Made by a program: the position numbers and the translations under genes
The notes under the pieces: model-generated
The model's database searches: none
The model's input: only the letters and a program-made list of their open reading frames with translations
What the model was told of the DNA's origin: nothing
Assembly: GCA_944323595.1 (NCBI GenBank)
Contig: CALUTF010000003.1
Location: 1 to 64,000, forward strand
DNA from: Candidatus Gastranaerophilales bacterium
GTDB taxonomy: Bacteria; Cyanobacteriota; Vampirovibrionia; Gastranaerophilales; Gastranaerophilaceae
Direction of reading: 5' to 3'
DNA length: 64,000 bases
Shown: piece by piece, positions 1 to 5,813 of the stretch
How the letters are laid out: each line of letters starts with the position of its first letter
Position numbering within the stretch: the stretch's first letter is position 1

Positions 1-3000
1 AACTTGTCAGCCCAGTTACGTTGAACACCAACCCCGTATTCAACATAAGGTTTAACACTCATTTCAGGAAGCTTAACATTGTTAGCTGTAACTTTGGATT
101 CATTCATTAAGTTCCAGACCATACCAACAGAAGCGTACGGCTGCCAACCGCCTTTGAGGTTTGCAATGAATCTTACACTAGGGTTCAATTGAATAGTGTG
201 CAACGGGTCACTTTCTATGCTGACCCCTGCAGCGTTCTTGTAATCAAAGGTGTTAACGAAAGTATAAGACAAGAACATAATCGGCTGGATAATGAACTTA
301 CCGTCTTTAAATTCAAAGTTGTACCCTGTTTTAGAACCAACACCAGCAAGAAGAGAAGTATAATCTTCTTTACCGTACATAGTGTGAGATTCACCAACAG
401 AAGCACCTGCGGATGCAGTGATAGCAGTCCAGAAGTTACCTTTGTAGAAAGTTTCGGTGAAGCCTAACAGTCCTCCGTTCATAGTAGTATCGACGCCGGA
501 GTAATTCAAAGAAGAACCCATGTAACCGGCATAACCAGTGAAGATTCTGCTCCAGCCGTTTTTCATTTCTTTGAAATCACCGTCAAAGCCTACAAGAGAA
601 CCATAAGTGATGGCATCAACTTTCGGACCGTTTTTAATGTTCATGGTTTCAAAAGTGGTGTAAGGTCTGAACCAGACAGCATTGTTATGAAGCTGATCAG
701 CGTATGACGGCATATTATCGTTAAAATCAGTACTTAATGCATATTTGTTAGCATTGATTTTAGCGTATCTTTCCATAGATGGTAATTGAGTAAATGCGTC
801 AGCGTGTTCAAAGACGTATTTGAACGCTTCGTTCATAGCAGCCTGGCCTGCAGCGAGGTTACCGACAGGGGTAGCCAGAACAGCAGGGTTAAATGCGTCA
901 GACGGGTTGCCTGTGGTTCCGCCACCTGTAGGCGGAATAGGTAAATTAGGTTCATCCGGTTCATCGGGCTCGTCAGGCAGAATAATGTCACCTTTGGCAA
1001 AAACGAAGTAACCGCCGTCGCCTTTACCGTCGTATTGATTGTCTTTGTCGTAGATAACATTGTATTTGTATATAGGTGTGTAAGCAGTTGTTTGGAAGCT
1101 GTCGGGAAGATCCCCTGTGCCACCTGAGATAGCGTTAACAACGTTATTTTTTAGGTCAGGTTCAGCGAAATAGACAGCGGTGACGGATTCACCCTCAACT
1201 GCGTCTGACAAAAGATTCATGCCGATAACGTTAATGTTTCCTGTATGTTCACCGTATTCAGCAGCAGTAAATCTATCCATTTCTTTGTTAGCTAAATCGA
1301 CGTCTGCTGCGAAATTAACATCGCCTGAGACAGTCAGATTATTGAGAGCAGAGATGCCTGCGGAGTCATTAACCATAGACATAAAACCGCTTTTCAGGTT
1401 CAGATTGTTGCCGTCGAAGATGTTGTCGCGGGCGCCGAGGTACAAATTAGTATTTTCAAGGCTAATGTTCACTGGCGCTTGTGCTGTTACATTTCCCTCG
1501 TCGTCGTATTCGTGTGCAGTTACGTCGTTGTTTAAGATAACTTTACCTGTTTCATCACCAGTGATATTGAGAGAATAACCGGTGTTATCGCTTGATTCCG
1601 TTGTACTTTGTTTATTCGTCATATACAGAAATCCATGCTCGTACGCACTTTCAAGAATTTCTTCATCAGACAGATTTCCCCAATTATCATCTGCCCAATA
1701 GGGCGGATCGTTTTTAATTTTCTCAAGAAATTCTTCAATACTTTCGGAGTAATAGGTGTTGTACCTGTCAGCAACCAAATCTCCAGTAGTCGTAGTAGTA
1801 ACAGTAGAGTTTAAGTCACCGTCAATGGCGTCATCAAACAGAATAGTTCCGTTAGAAACCGCATTCAGTGTTAAATCAGGAACACTAATTTGTGTAATTC
1901 GTTCTGTTGTGACAGTTTGAGTGTTTATAGATGTAACTTTATCCTGTTGTTTTACGCTGCTAACTCCGCCTAAATATATAGCGTTAGGCGTTTGTACGCC
2001 TTTTGATTCAGTATAATTGCCTGAAAAAACACTTTGTCCTCCGTCTTTCGCAATAATATTCAGGTCAGCTGTTGAATATATTGCGCCACCTTTGGCTTCT
2101 CCGTTTTCAGATTTGGCATAGTTGTTGTAGAAAGAGGTATTAATAATGCCGCCATCTTCAGAACCTATTGTTTTTGTATTATAAATAGCCCCGCCGTACG
2201 CAGCAGTATATCCGCTTACATAATTGTTTACAAAGGTAGTTTCAATGTCGTCAAGTTGTCCGTTGTTAAAAATAGCACCACCGCCTGCACCGCCTTGTTC
2301 ACTGATTGCAGAGTTAGATATAAACTGTTCCGCATCCAGAGTTTCTATTTTACCGATAGCATAGTTGTTATAGCTGTCATAGTAATCGCTAATATAGATG
2401 GCACCGCCGCTTGCTCCAGTTATTCCCTCAGCAGAATTGTTAACAAAATTGCCCTTTATTTTATTGATGCGTGCAGAATCAATATAAATACCACCTCCGC
2501 TGGCAATGTCACCAATTGCTTTATTTTCTTCAAAGTTGCCGGTGATTTCGCCTATAGTGATTTCACTGGCGGTTACATTTTCACCTCCTAATCCTGCAAA
2601 AATAGCACCACCTCTTGCAGTTCCTTGTAGTGATTTAATAATATTCTTTGTAAAATTACCATTTATAGTGCCGGTAACACTATTTATATTACTAGGGTAT
2701 CCGCGCAGAAATGCAACAGCACCGCCACCGCTATTGGGATTATCATAAGAAGAAATTTCCTTTTCATTTTGTATAAAATTAGAGTTGATGCTATTTATTT
2801 CTCCTTGCTGAAAAATTGCTTGACCATTCCCAATAAAATCACCGGTAATATTACCGATGGTGCCGTGGTTTGAGATAGCAATCTCATTATTATTGATAAA
2901 ATTGCCTGTTATATTATTTATTTTGTCAGGGTTCTGTATAGCTGTACCATTATTGTAAAATTCTGCAGTAATATTGTTAATAAGTCCGTCGTTCCGGATT

Positions 3001-5036
3001 GCGTAACGTTCATTATCAATAAATAGTCCGTTAATATTACTTCCGTTTGTGCTTCCTATGTCAATAGCATTTCTATTACCAATGAAATCACCGGTAATGT
3101 CGCCAACTATACCGAAAACATTTATCCCAGTACCATTATTAATAAAATCACCGGTGATATTACCTATTACCCCACTGCTGGAAATACCATAACCGTTTCC
3201 AATGAAGTTACCGGTAACATTCCCAATTACACCATCGTAGTTGCGAATACCACCACTGTTTCCAATGAAGTTGCCTGTAATATCGCCAATTTTTGCAGAA
3301 CCCTCAGGTGCATCATAGTCTTGCTCATTATAAATAGCATCATAATAATTATTAATAAAATTACCTGTAATATTACCTATTTCAGCTATGGAGCCTTGAT
3401 TATCATAGGAATCATAATAATTATGGATAACACCACTTGCAACATACATTGAATTGCCAACAAAATTACCTGTAATATCTCCGATTTTACCGCTATTACT
3501 TATCGTTCCATCAGAAGCGTAATTATTAATAAAATCTGCATTAATATCTCCAATGGTGGCACCTACGTTGTTATAAATGGCTCCGCCTTCTGAATCTGCT
3601 GTGTTATCAATAAAAGTACCTGTGATACCACCAATAGTACCATCATTATAAATCGCCCCGCCATAGCGAGCGCTATTACCAACAAAATTCCCGTTAATAT
3701 TTGAGATTGTGCCGGCATTATAGAGAGCTCCGCCATGACGCTGATAATAATCTCCATTGATGGAATTGTTAATAAAATCAGCATTGAGATTGGTTATATT
3801 ACCGGCATTATAGAGAGCTCCGCCATGACGCTGATAATAACCTCCATTGATGGAATTGTTAATAAAATCAGCATTGAGATTGGTTATATTACCGGCATTA
3901 TAAAGTGCACCACCATAACTATAATTAGAATTAGAATATAATGGGCTATTGATAGAATTGTTGCTGAAAGTGGCATTGAGATTAGTTATACTGCCTGAAT
4001 TATAAAGAGCCCCACCGTATACGTTATTGTAGTTGCTTGCCGCGGACGCCGAGTTGTTGTAAAAATCTGCGTTAAGGTTTGTAATATTGCCAGAATTGTA
4101 TAACGCACCGCCGTGAGCGTATACTGTTCCATCATCATAGTAACCCTCATTAATAGTAGAGGTAATAGAATTATTAATAAAGGTCCCGCTGATAGTCTCA
4201 ATGCTAGCAGAGTTGTTCAATGCACCCCCCAGAATGTCAACATAGGCATCTTTCCCACTGGAATCTGAGGTCCCATCGCCATAAACATTCAGAGTAATAT
4301 TAGTTATGTTGTCTTGAAAGAGTACATTTTCAAAATTTGTAACGCCTGACACTCCTCCAATATGTTGGTAATGGCTGCTTGAAGTACCATCAGGATTTTC
4401 CAGAGTAACCGGCTGCACCTGATTGATGTATTCAGCAGAATAACTGCCGCCATCAGGTGCTGTTGTTTCGGATGAATTGTATTTGTAAGTAATAGTCTGC
4501 CCTATAGGTGTCGTCGGATCCTGAACAAATTCATTGTCGCCATCCTCGTCTTTCTGCCAACCGAAAGTAAGAGTAACATCGCCGTTCGGATCCCCGTATT
4601 CGGTTTGTTTGAGGTTCATTTGATAGTAAACAGGCGTAAACTCTCCTGTTTCGCTATTATAATTGAATTTAGTAATAATGTTGTCGCCTGTTGGTGCAGC
4701 CCCGTCCGCCCCTGCAGGAACTTCTGTCAAAGTGTATGCGCTTTCGGGCGCTAAAATAGAGCCGCTTTGGACAAGGTTCCCCTCGTCATCATATTCTGTT
4801 TGAGGGATTTGGACATTGTTTTCGTGCAAATAGTCTAAAGTAGGCTTATTGAGCGGAATTTTACTCAAATCGACATCAGCAAGTTCTGCCGCTCCAGCGC
4901 CGGAAAAACTAAAACCAAAGCAGCCGACAAGTGTTGCAATACAAAGGGTACGGGAGTTCAATTTGCCCCCCCCCCTTTCTGAGAAAAGGCTATTATTGCT
5001 TAATTTGGGCAGTGTAGTAAAAACCGTGTTTGACAT
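1..5036 (-). CDS. Giant Pmp-like autotransporter adhesin (C-terminus beyond left edge)
   Basis: The minus strand is open from the ATG at 5036 through position 1, about 1678 codons with no stop. An AGGA lies 7 nt before the start; a second in-frame ATG at 5042 is too close to that site. Visible order: a 25-residue leader ending in a run encoded by G10; a signal peptide (hydrophobic TLVGCFGFSF, then GAGAAE); a spacer to about residue 250; many short beta-helix repeats of the form GGA(L/I)YN..G.I..(L/I)..F..N(N/S) to about residue 1050; further beta-rich passenger; a Pro/Asp/Glu linker (EPDEPDEPNLPIPP) near residue 1360; and from about 1380 a region rich in aromatic beta-strands that looks like an outer-membrane barrel, cut by the window edge. 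GGAI and FxxN repeats are the hallmark of chlamydial polymorphic membrane proteins. Role inferred: surface-exposed adhesin. The autotransporter call is firm; ligand and substrate are unknown. Confidence 0.85.
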   Translation of the reverse strand, partial: MSNTVFTTLPKLSNNSLFSERGGGKLNSRTLCIATLVGCFGFSFSGAGAAELADVDLSKIPLNKPTLDYLHENNVQIPQTEYDDEGNLVQSGSILAPESAYTLTEVPAGADGAAPTGDNIITKFNYNSETGEFTPVYYQMNLKQTEYGDPNGDVTLTFGWQKDEDGDNEFVQDPTTPIGQTITYKYNSSETTAPDGGSYSAEYINQVQPVTLENPDGTSSSHYQHIGGVSGVTNFENVLFQDNITNITLNVYGDGTSDSSGKDAYVDILGGALNNSASIETISGTFINNSITSTINEGYYDDGTVYAHGGALYNSGNITNLNADFYNNSASAASNYNNVYGGALYNSGSITNLNATFSNNSINSPLYSNSNYSYGGALYNAGNITNLNADFINNSINGGYYQRHGGALYNAGNITNLNADFINNSINGDYYQRHGGALYNAGTISNINGNFVGNSARYGGAIYNDGTIGGITGTFIDNTADSEGGAIYNNVGATIGDINADFINNYASDGTISNSGKIGDITGNFVGNSMYVASGVIHNYYDSYDNQGSIAEIGNITGNFINNYYDAIYNEQDYDAPEGSAKIGDITGNFIGNSGGIRNYDGVIGNVTGNFIGNGYGISSSGVIGNITGDFINNGTGINVFGIVGDITGDFIGNRNAIDIGSTNGSNINGLFIDNERYAIRNDGLINNITAEFYNNGTAIQNPDKINNITGNFINNNEIAISNHGTIGNITGDFIGNGQAIFQQGEINSINSNFIQNEKEISSYDNPNSGGGAVAFLRGYPSNINSVTGTINGNFTKNIIKSLQGTARGGAIFAGLGGENVTASEITIGEITGNFEENKAIGDIASGGGIYIDSARINKIKGNFVNNSAEGITGASGGAIYISDYYDSYNNYAIGKIETLDAEQFISNSAISEQGGAGGGAIFNNGQLDDIETTFVNNYVSGYTAAYGGAIYNTKTIGSEDGGIINTSFYNNYAKSENGEAKGGAIYSTADLNIIAKDGGQSVFSGNYTESKGVQTPNAIYLGGVSSVKQQDKVTSINTQTVTTERITQISVPDLTLNAVSNGTILFDDAIDGDLNSTVTTTTTGDLVADRYNTYYSESIEEFLEKIKNDPPYWADDNWGNLSDEEILESAYEHGFLYMTNKQSTTESSDNTGYSLNITGDETGKVILNNDVTAHEYDDEGNVTAQAPVNISLENTNLYLGARDNIFDGNNLNLKSGFMSMVNDSAGISALNNLTVSGDVNFAADVDLANKEMDRFTAAEYGEHTGNINVIGMNLLSDAVEGESVTAVYFAEPDLKNNVVNAISGGTGDLPDSFQTTAYTPIYKYNVIYDKDNQYDGKGDGGYFVFAKGDIILPDEPDEPDEPNLPIPPTGGGTTGNPSDAFNPAVLATPVGNLAAGQAAMNEAFKYVFEHADAFTQLPSMERYAKINANKYALSTDFNDNMPSYADQLHNNAVWFRPYTTFETMNIKNGPKVDAITYGSLVGFDGDFKEMKNGWSRIFTGYAGYMGSSLNYSGVDTTMNGGLLGFTETFYKGNFWTAITASAGASVGESHTMYGKEDYTSLLAGVGSKTGYNFEFKDGKFIIQPIMFLSYTFVNTFDYKNAAGVSIESDPLHTIQLNPSVRFIANLKGGWQPYASVGMVWNLMNESKVTANNVKLPEMSVKPYVEYGVGVQRNWADK
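3721..3900. repeat. Tandem 90-bp duplication inside the adhesin repeat array
   Basis: 3721-3810 and 3811-3900 are identical except for one base (T at 3751, C at 3841). Each encodes 30 residues containing GGALYNAGNITNLNADF. The neighbouring repeats are clearly more diverged, so this is a recent, in-frame unit duplication. Confidence 0.95.
4966..4975 (-). repeat. G10 homopolymer at the 5' end of the adhesin gene
   Basis: Ten consecutive C on the given strand (G10 in the coding strand) encode part of an Arg-Gly-Gly-Gly stretch about 20 codons after the ATG and just before the signal peptide. Loss or gain of one G would frameshift the gene. The tract also lies 4 nt before an in-frame TTG (4961), which would place a start directly before the signal peptide with the G tract as its ribosome-binding site. 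Confidence 0.8.
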
Positions 5037-5070
5037 AAACATATCCTCGCAAGATAAAGTATATATCTAT

Positions 5071-5099
5071 ACTATATACTATATTTTATAAAAATTCAA
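5071..5099 (-). promoter_or_regulatory. Predicted promoter of the adhesin gene
   Basis: On the minus strand there is TTGAAT (5094-5099), 17 nt, then TATAGT (5071-5076). This would give a leader of about 28 nt carrying the GAGGA ribosome site. It lies in a very AT-rich stretch, so other -10 choices are possible. Confidence 0.45.
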
Positions 5100-5420
5100 G
5101 TGTTTAGAGTGCACATTTAATAAAAATTTACAAAACGAATGGGCTTAGTTAGGGGTATTTGTAAAGTGTGGCAAAGGTTTTCGACAGAAAAAAGTTTTTT
5201 AAGAAAAGATTAAGAAATATGTAGAATTGTTAAGGAAATGCCACATCAAGGGGCAAGGCTTTCCCCACATCTTACCTCACCCCTAAAAGCCCCTCACCCT
5301 ACCCCTCTCCCCCACAGAGGTCAATCTGACGGGGGAGGGAAATGCAACTCCAGCCTTGAGGAGTCGTTCTGATGCAAACGTAACGTTTGCACCTCACCCC
5401 TACCCCCCTCACCCTACCCC

Positions 5421-5550
5421 TGTCTTGGATTTGCTCCACGCTCACGGAGCCTCGACAAGAAGCCTGCGGCTAAGCAGTCTCGTTCCGTTCGCTATCCGGA
5501 CTAACTCCGTGTCGTCCGTCCGCAAATCCGCTCTCCTACTAAGGAGAGGG
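5421..5550. repeat. 130-bp direct repeat, copy 1
   Basis: It matches 5684-5813 at 127 of 130 positions. It has nested inverted repeats: GGATTTGC (5427-5434) pairs with GCAAATCC (5522-5529), and inside that CACGGAG (5443-5449) pairs with CTCCGTG (5505-5511). As RNA or single-stranded DNA it could fold into one long interrupted stem. Its last 20 bases form the GC-rich hairpin that starts the 136-bp element. Confidence 0.9.
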
Positions 5551-5666
5551 AACTCTTTATTTCTCCAAAAGCCGGCATTACAAAGATATTCAAAATTTTT
5601 TGAACACCTAATACAGGCGACTTTGCCGATATTGAAGAGTAGTATTGATGCAAACGTGACGTTTGT
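5531..5666 (+). repeat. Dispersed hairpin-palindrome element, copy 1 (136 bp)
   Basis: It begins with the hairpin CTCTCCT/AGGAGAG, continues through a core with AAAAGCCG, TTTTTTGAA, AGGCGA and TTGAAGAGT, and ends with the palindrome GCAAACGTGACGTTTGT at 5650-5666. The complement of 25255-25390 has the same length, the same order and recognisably the same core. Confidence 0.8.
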
Positions 5667-5683
5667 ACCTCACCCCTGCCCCC

Positions 5684-5813
5684 TGTCTTGGATTTGCTCC
5701 ACGCTCACGGAGACTCGACAAAAAGCCTGCGGCTAAGCAGTCTCGTTCCGTTCGCTATCCGGACTAACTCCGTGTCGTCCGTCCGCAAATCCGCTCTCCT
5801 ACTAAGGCGAGGG
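5684..5813. repeat. 130-bp direct repeat, copy 2
   Basis: Near-identical to 5421-5550, with three substitutions. All nested inverted arms are kept; one substitution falls in the terminal hairpin (AGGCGAG instead of AGGAGAG). Confidence 0.9.

Follow-up and report, generated by a model that had tools for sequence, protein, structure and literature searches.

The 64-kb window, which is the whole stretch of DNA that we analysed, begins at base 1 of contig C3 in a Gastranaerophilales genome, and it raises the question of whether a run of ten G at the 5' end of a very large gene switches that gene on and off, tunes its translation, or has no such role at all. The run lies on the minus strand at 4966-4975 (C10 on the plus strand), and the next longest run of G or C in the window has six bases. 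Dinucleotide shuffles of the window held 0.08 matches to G9 each, and the two overlapping matches that are observed were reached in 1 of 100 shuffles. The features of the locus are as follows.

3..5036, minus strand: gene, cut off by the contig start, for a large Pmp-like protein with GGA[ILV]/FxxN repeats and a C-terminus resembling that of autotransporters
4890..4964, minus strand: signal-peptide-like KLNSRTLCIATLVGCFGFSFSGAGA, directly after the tract, read from the sequence with no predictor
4958..4960, minus strand: TGA, the built-in stop of the OFF frame, reached at once with G9 or G12 in a frame count over G8-G12
4959..4961, minus strand: in-frame TTG, a proposed alternative start that most adhesin paralogs and orthologs lack behind the tract
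4966..4975, minus strand: G10 homopolymer, the candidate switch tract, in frame (ON) in the assembly
4976..5036, minus strand: 20-codon leader, MSNTVFTTLPKLSNNSLFSE plus one base, from start codon to tract, in three near-identical genome copies
4958..5220, minus strand: promoter and leader block, repeated at G000:C6:23911-24172 and C16:1-112
5034..5036, minus strand: probable start codon ATG (MSNTVFTT...), with an upstream Shine-Dalgarno (SD) sequence and paralogs of the same layout
5045..5048, minus strand: SD-like GAGG upstream of ATG 5036

The gene reads from ATG 5036 through 20 codons and the G10 tract into KLNSRTLCIATLVGCFGFSFSGAGA and then AELADV..., and it stays open to contig base 1, where it runs off C3 (and the window) so that its 3' end is not seen. 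The sequence-only reading had placed the tract between the start codon and the signal peptide, and this arrangement was borne out, with an ATG upstream and the signal-peptide-like segment (4964-4890) directly after the run. The exact start needed amending: ATG 5042 shares the frame of 5036 but stands too near the SD sequence, and the SD-supported ATG is the one at 5036, 61 nt from the tract. Counting reading frames for lengths from G8 to G12, we found that a change of a single unit shifts the frame of the gene. With G10 the frame is open; with G9 or G12 it meets the TGA at 4958-4960, meaning that one G fewer than in the assembly stops translation immediately; and with G8 or G11 it continues for about 20 more codons before a stop.

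The encoded protein (P0001) is a repeat protein of more than 1,678 aa, cut by the contig end, whose passenger carries 14 GGA[ILVFYM] and 28 FxxN motifs, compared to 0.4 and 5.8 in shuffles. Poly-G switching is known for the Chlamydia Pmp proteins, with which the window protein shares multiple GGA[ILV]/FxxN repeats, although the phyla are unrelated and the match to PF02415 (Chlam_PMP) reaches 15.1 bits against a cut-off of 20.6, with five stretches found at a lax threshold only. We therefore call P0001 Pmp-like and do not file it as a Pmp. The adhesin had no match in Pfam at 1e-3 or in NCBIfam at 1, and its C-terminus matched no Pfam autotransporter family even at a lax cut-off. The C-terminal sequence looks barrel-like; a single-sequence fold of 1,200 aa was of low confidence (pLDDT 37). 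The protein is probably an exported adhesin. Rfam gave no matches on the 64-kb window.

We then asked how common such runs are in the window's own genome (G000; 2,048,099 bp in 77 contigs), using Markov extension from shorter runs to obtain the expected numbers. There are 13 runs of at least nine G in the whole genome, compared to 0.14-1.1 expected, and the earlier impression that a ten-G run is out of the ordinary here was correct. Counts by exact length (6 runs of seven, 1 of eight, 2 of nine, 4 of ten, 3 of eleven and 4 of twelve) dip at eight, with its single run, and show a second mode at 10-12. All 13 of the longer runs are intragenic, each with its G's on the sense strand, in the following places.

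C3 (window) G10, C6 G9 twice, C9 G12, C16 G11: five adhesin paralogs
C14 G10, C35 G10, C43 G12: three pseudopilin-like genes (GFTLAEVLITLG)
C1 and C10: glycosyltransferase-like genes
C2: an SDR gene
C18: a membrane-protein gene

In the adhesin and pilin genes of G000, the tract sits between the start codon and the signal or prepilin sequence. Two more adhesins of this genome have interrupted tracts, G5TG7 on C4 and G4TG7 on C16, and both are in frame. The G11 on C10 (L014; G000:C10:18889-18899) lies near the 3' end of its glycosyltransferase gene, close ahead of an acetyltransferase gene, where a change of length would alter the C-terminus of the glycosyltransferase and would not switch the gene off.

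If the tract is a switch, copies of the same leader should be found in different states, and the promoter-leader block of the window occurs in G000 in three copies with three tract states. The window copy has G10 and is ON; the C6 copy is 99% identical to it, with G9 and OFF; and the copy at C16:1-112 is 94% identical, with G11 and two bases fewer before the tract, and is likewise OFF. Between species, L011 (G000:C6) and L057 (G001:C21) are identical on both sides of the tract, for about 140 nt ahead of it and about 40 nt behind it (about 180 nt in total), and their sole difference is G9 (OFF) versus G11 (ON). An orthologous membrane-protein gene has G12 and is OFF in G000, and has G11 and is ON in both G001 and G002. 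The phase variation proposed by the sequence-only reading is thus supported at the level of paralogs and orthologs, in which the same leader carries G9 to G12 and is in or out of frame to match.

The same pattern extends to the genus, where all four members have tracts of at least ten G, lengths (taken from MAG consensus) range from G9 to G13, and frames are near random thirds. Among 17 adhesin leaders of the genus with pure tracts of G9-G12, 5 are ON and 12 OFF, and the count becomes 5 ON and 14 OFF when two leaders found elsewhere in the order (L090, L098) are included. Where the tract is missing or interrupted, 13 of 15 leaders are in frame, the exceptions being L097 and L137, the latter of which also has an early internal stop; L123, a relative that lost its tract, is in frame. 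Two tract-less adhesin loci with no assignable start (L128, L132) were left out of these counts. Frame loss was therefore seen in 14/19 leaders with a pure tract of at least nine G versus 2/15 without one (Fisher p=0.0006). When the adhesins and pilins of the genus are pooled, 7/27 are ON, which is compatible with one third. Downstream of the tract, the OFF adhesin genes contain long open ORFs of up to 1,663 aa, and since they stay open so far past the tract, we conclude that most have not decayed.

Given these results, we consider it likely, with a probability of roughly 0.85, that the G10 tract acts as a contingency locus, a slipped-strand on/off switch. Under this model, slipped-strand mispairing at replication would alter the number of G's while translation would begin at the upstream SD-supported ATG. 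With G10 (or G13, or G7), translation would continue across the tract to the signal peptide and passenger, the ON state, and with G9, G11 or G12 it would end within a few to about 20 codons, the OFF state. The tract, its frame arithmetic, the differences in length and frame from copy to copy, the concentration in surface and glycan genes, and the intact ORFs of OFF copies are all present in the sequence itself; the length change would probably be reversible and frequent within a population. Hypermutability through missing mismatch repair was ruled out, as MutS was found in 8/8 genomes tested, and slippage therefore need not be fast.

Across the family, tracts of at least nine G occur in 126 of 146 genomes, several of which have more than 100, with a maximum of 176 in 2.2 Mb (G182). 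Pseudopilins account for most tract genes in the 400-kb samples taken from G182, G122 and G012. The sequence-only reading had held that a tract length invariant among strains would count against switching. Lengths do differ within the window's genus, but they are nearly invariant in a sister genus, g7, where the conserved pattern is carried by the following loci.

L141-L160 (G182), and L194-L219 and L244-L260 (G243): g7 pseudopilin leaders

In g7, the tract is G10 in 31/32 cases in G182, in 30/36 in G243 and in 21/23 from other genomes (one locus each), and in 19/21, 23/26 and 17/19 cases, respectively, the frame set by the SD-supported ATG would need one more G to match the pilin frame. This offset is kept despite a distance from ATG to tract that varies from 21 to 85 nt; the flanks are C-G10-C in 57/57, and a stop follows no more than about 14 nt past the tract in 56/57. 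Another sister genus, represented by G012 (L161-L180), has a modal length of G13, with one G in excess of the ON frame in 17/20 tract genes. Random phase as a family-wide rule is ruled out by the constancy of length and frame in g7. Since random switching predicts thirds, g7 and the genus of G012 look either fixed at a default setting a single step away from ON or reliant on the tract as a slippage signal. A poly-G leader in Gastranaerophilales apparently need not act as a switch that drifts at random. Rather tentatively, and with somewhat less than even confidence, we propose a family-wide poly-G gate on the expression of large families of pseudopilins and adhesins, in which the g7 tracts, one G short of ON, would be default-OFF or subject to programmed slippage, and the genes of the window would be the freely drifting version. 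If the genes are default-OFF, each cell would show few of about 100 pilins, and if slippage is programmed, scores of genes would share one signal.

Could the window tract itself be a recoding signal rather than a mutational switch, with RNA polymerase or the ribosome slipping on it at a fixed rate? Programmed slippage would yield a share of product whatever the frame of the DNA, and the conserved length, frame, flanks and early stops of the g7 genes agree with it. However, a conserved slip site with a conserved frame offset, as found in g7, is absent from the window's genus, whose lengths (G9-G13) and almost randomly distributed frames speak against this explanation. In addition, a search for an RNA stem downstream of the g7 tracts as a frameshift stimulator gave no signal (mean z -0.07), and homopolymer runs used in recoding have been described mainly as A/T (PMC3711429). 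We consider programmed slippage improbable at the window locus. The sequence-only reading had also offered the tract as an adjustable ribosome-binding site for TTG 4961, tuning expression. The TTG does exist, in frame and with a short spacer behind the G run, yet this role does not generalise: relatives of the same layout (L011, L013/L120, L134, L136, L139, L121 and others) lack a start codon at that place, and an SD-supported ATG lies upstream in every adhesin tract leader. The model is rejected on the paralogs, among which a TTG after the tract occurs only in the three copies of the window leader, and because the TTG is limited to one leader while the SD-ATG stands upstream in all, general tuning of this kind is disfavoured and has a very small chance of applying to the window.

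Two readings that dispense with regulation altogether seem to us slighter still. Illumina reads can misbehave on poly-G templates (PMC9187656), and the genome copies are MAGs, which might make the length or presence of the tract an artefact of sequencing or assembly; against this, the tracts are internal, recur at matching places in their genes across many separate assemblies, and show a sense-strand bias and specificity for gene class. Equally far-fetched is a neutral leftover, in which OFF copies would be decaying pseudogenes and the tract would have no switching role. The two leaders that are out of frame with no pure tract, one of which is also interrupted early by a stop, could be read in this way, but the OFF genes keep ORFs intact past the tract for up to 1,663 codons.

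The mutational switch that we favour has counterparts elsewhere. A study of the Campylobacter poly-G phasome describes tracts of at least eight with G on the sense strand, interrupted tracts, and one strain with 81 putative tracts (PMC6321876), a number exceeded within the family studied here. The two systems share coding-strand tracts of at least eight G in surface and glycan genes, an AT-rich genome, and interrupted, non-variable relatives (PMC6321876). However, the window lineage belongs to a different phylum (Cyanobacteriota, Gastranaerophilales) and has MutS, and its tracts belong to large families of adhesins and pseudopilins, in which they follow the start codon and precede the signal or prepilin sequence. 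In Bifidobacterium breve, poly-G pilus genes are enriched in the gut for the productive length (PMC9187656). There too, the G tract stands between a secretion-signal ORF and the remainder of a surface appendage protein in a gut bacterium, and only some lengths are productive, although B. breve has one or two clusters per genome and sortase pili, whereas Gastranaerophilales carry between a dozen and over 100 tracts and autotransporter-like proteins and type IV-like pseudopilins (PMC9187656). We found nothing relevant by title and abstract in the literature on phase variation or homopolymers in Gastranaerophilales or Melainabacteria. Sequence comparison thus supports poly-G phase variation at this locus, a known mechanism, in a lineage with no report found, and the family-wide, frame-tuned version could be the part that is new. 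The locus offers a testable case of phase variation by a contingency locus in gut cyanobacteria that do not photosynthesise, a commensal lineage without cultured members, and the one-short-of-ON frame of g7 raises the question of whether its tracts are tuned to a default state or are programmed slippage signals.

Several smaller observations concern the surroundings of these tracts. The C-termini of adhesin paralogs are nearly identical while their passengers differ (window 1-5042; L011, L012, L016, L054), and several contigs break in or beside adhesin genes, which together suggest gene conversion or unresolved repeats. REP-like repeats, ctcaccctacccctctccc / PLTPNPSPKGRGE (translated SSPLAGEVRWG), occur at window 5260-5700 and at L051, L065, L128 and L132; they lie between genes and, in some adhesins, apparently also as insertions close to the N-terminus. 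In G122, five loci (L102, L103, L104, L113, L115) have an ATG-leader-G tract 130-230 nt upstream of pilins that start from an SD-ATG of their own, an arrangement in which the leader looks like a separable cassette. Finally, at L248 (G243:C54) the tract and its flank stand in tandem, as TTAGCAATTC-G11-AATCTGATTTAGCAATTC-G10.
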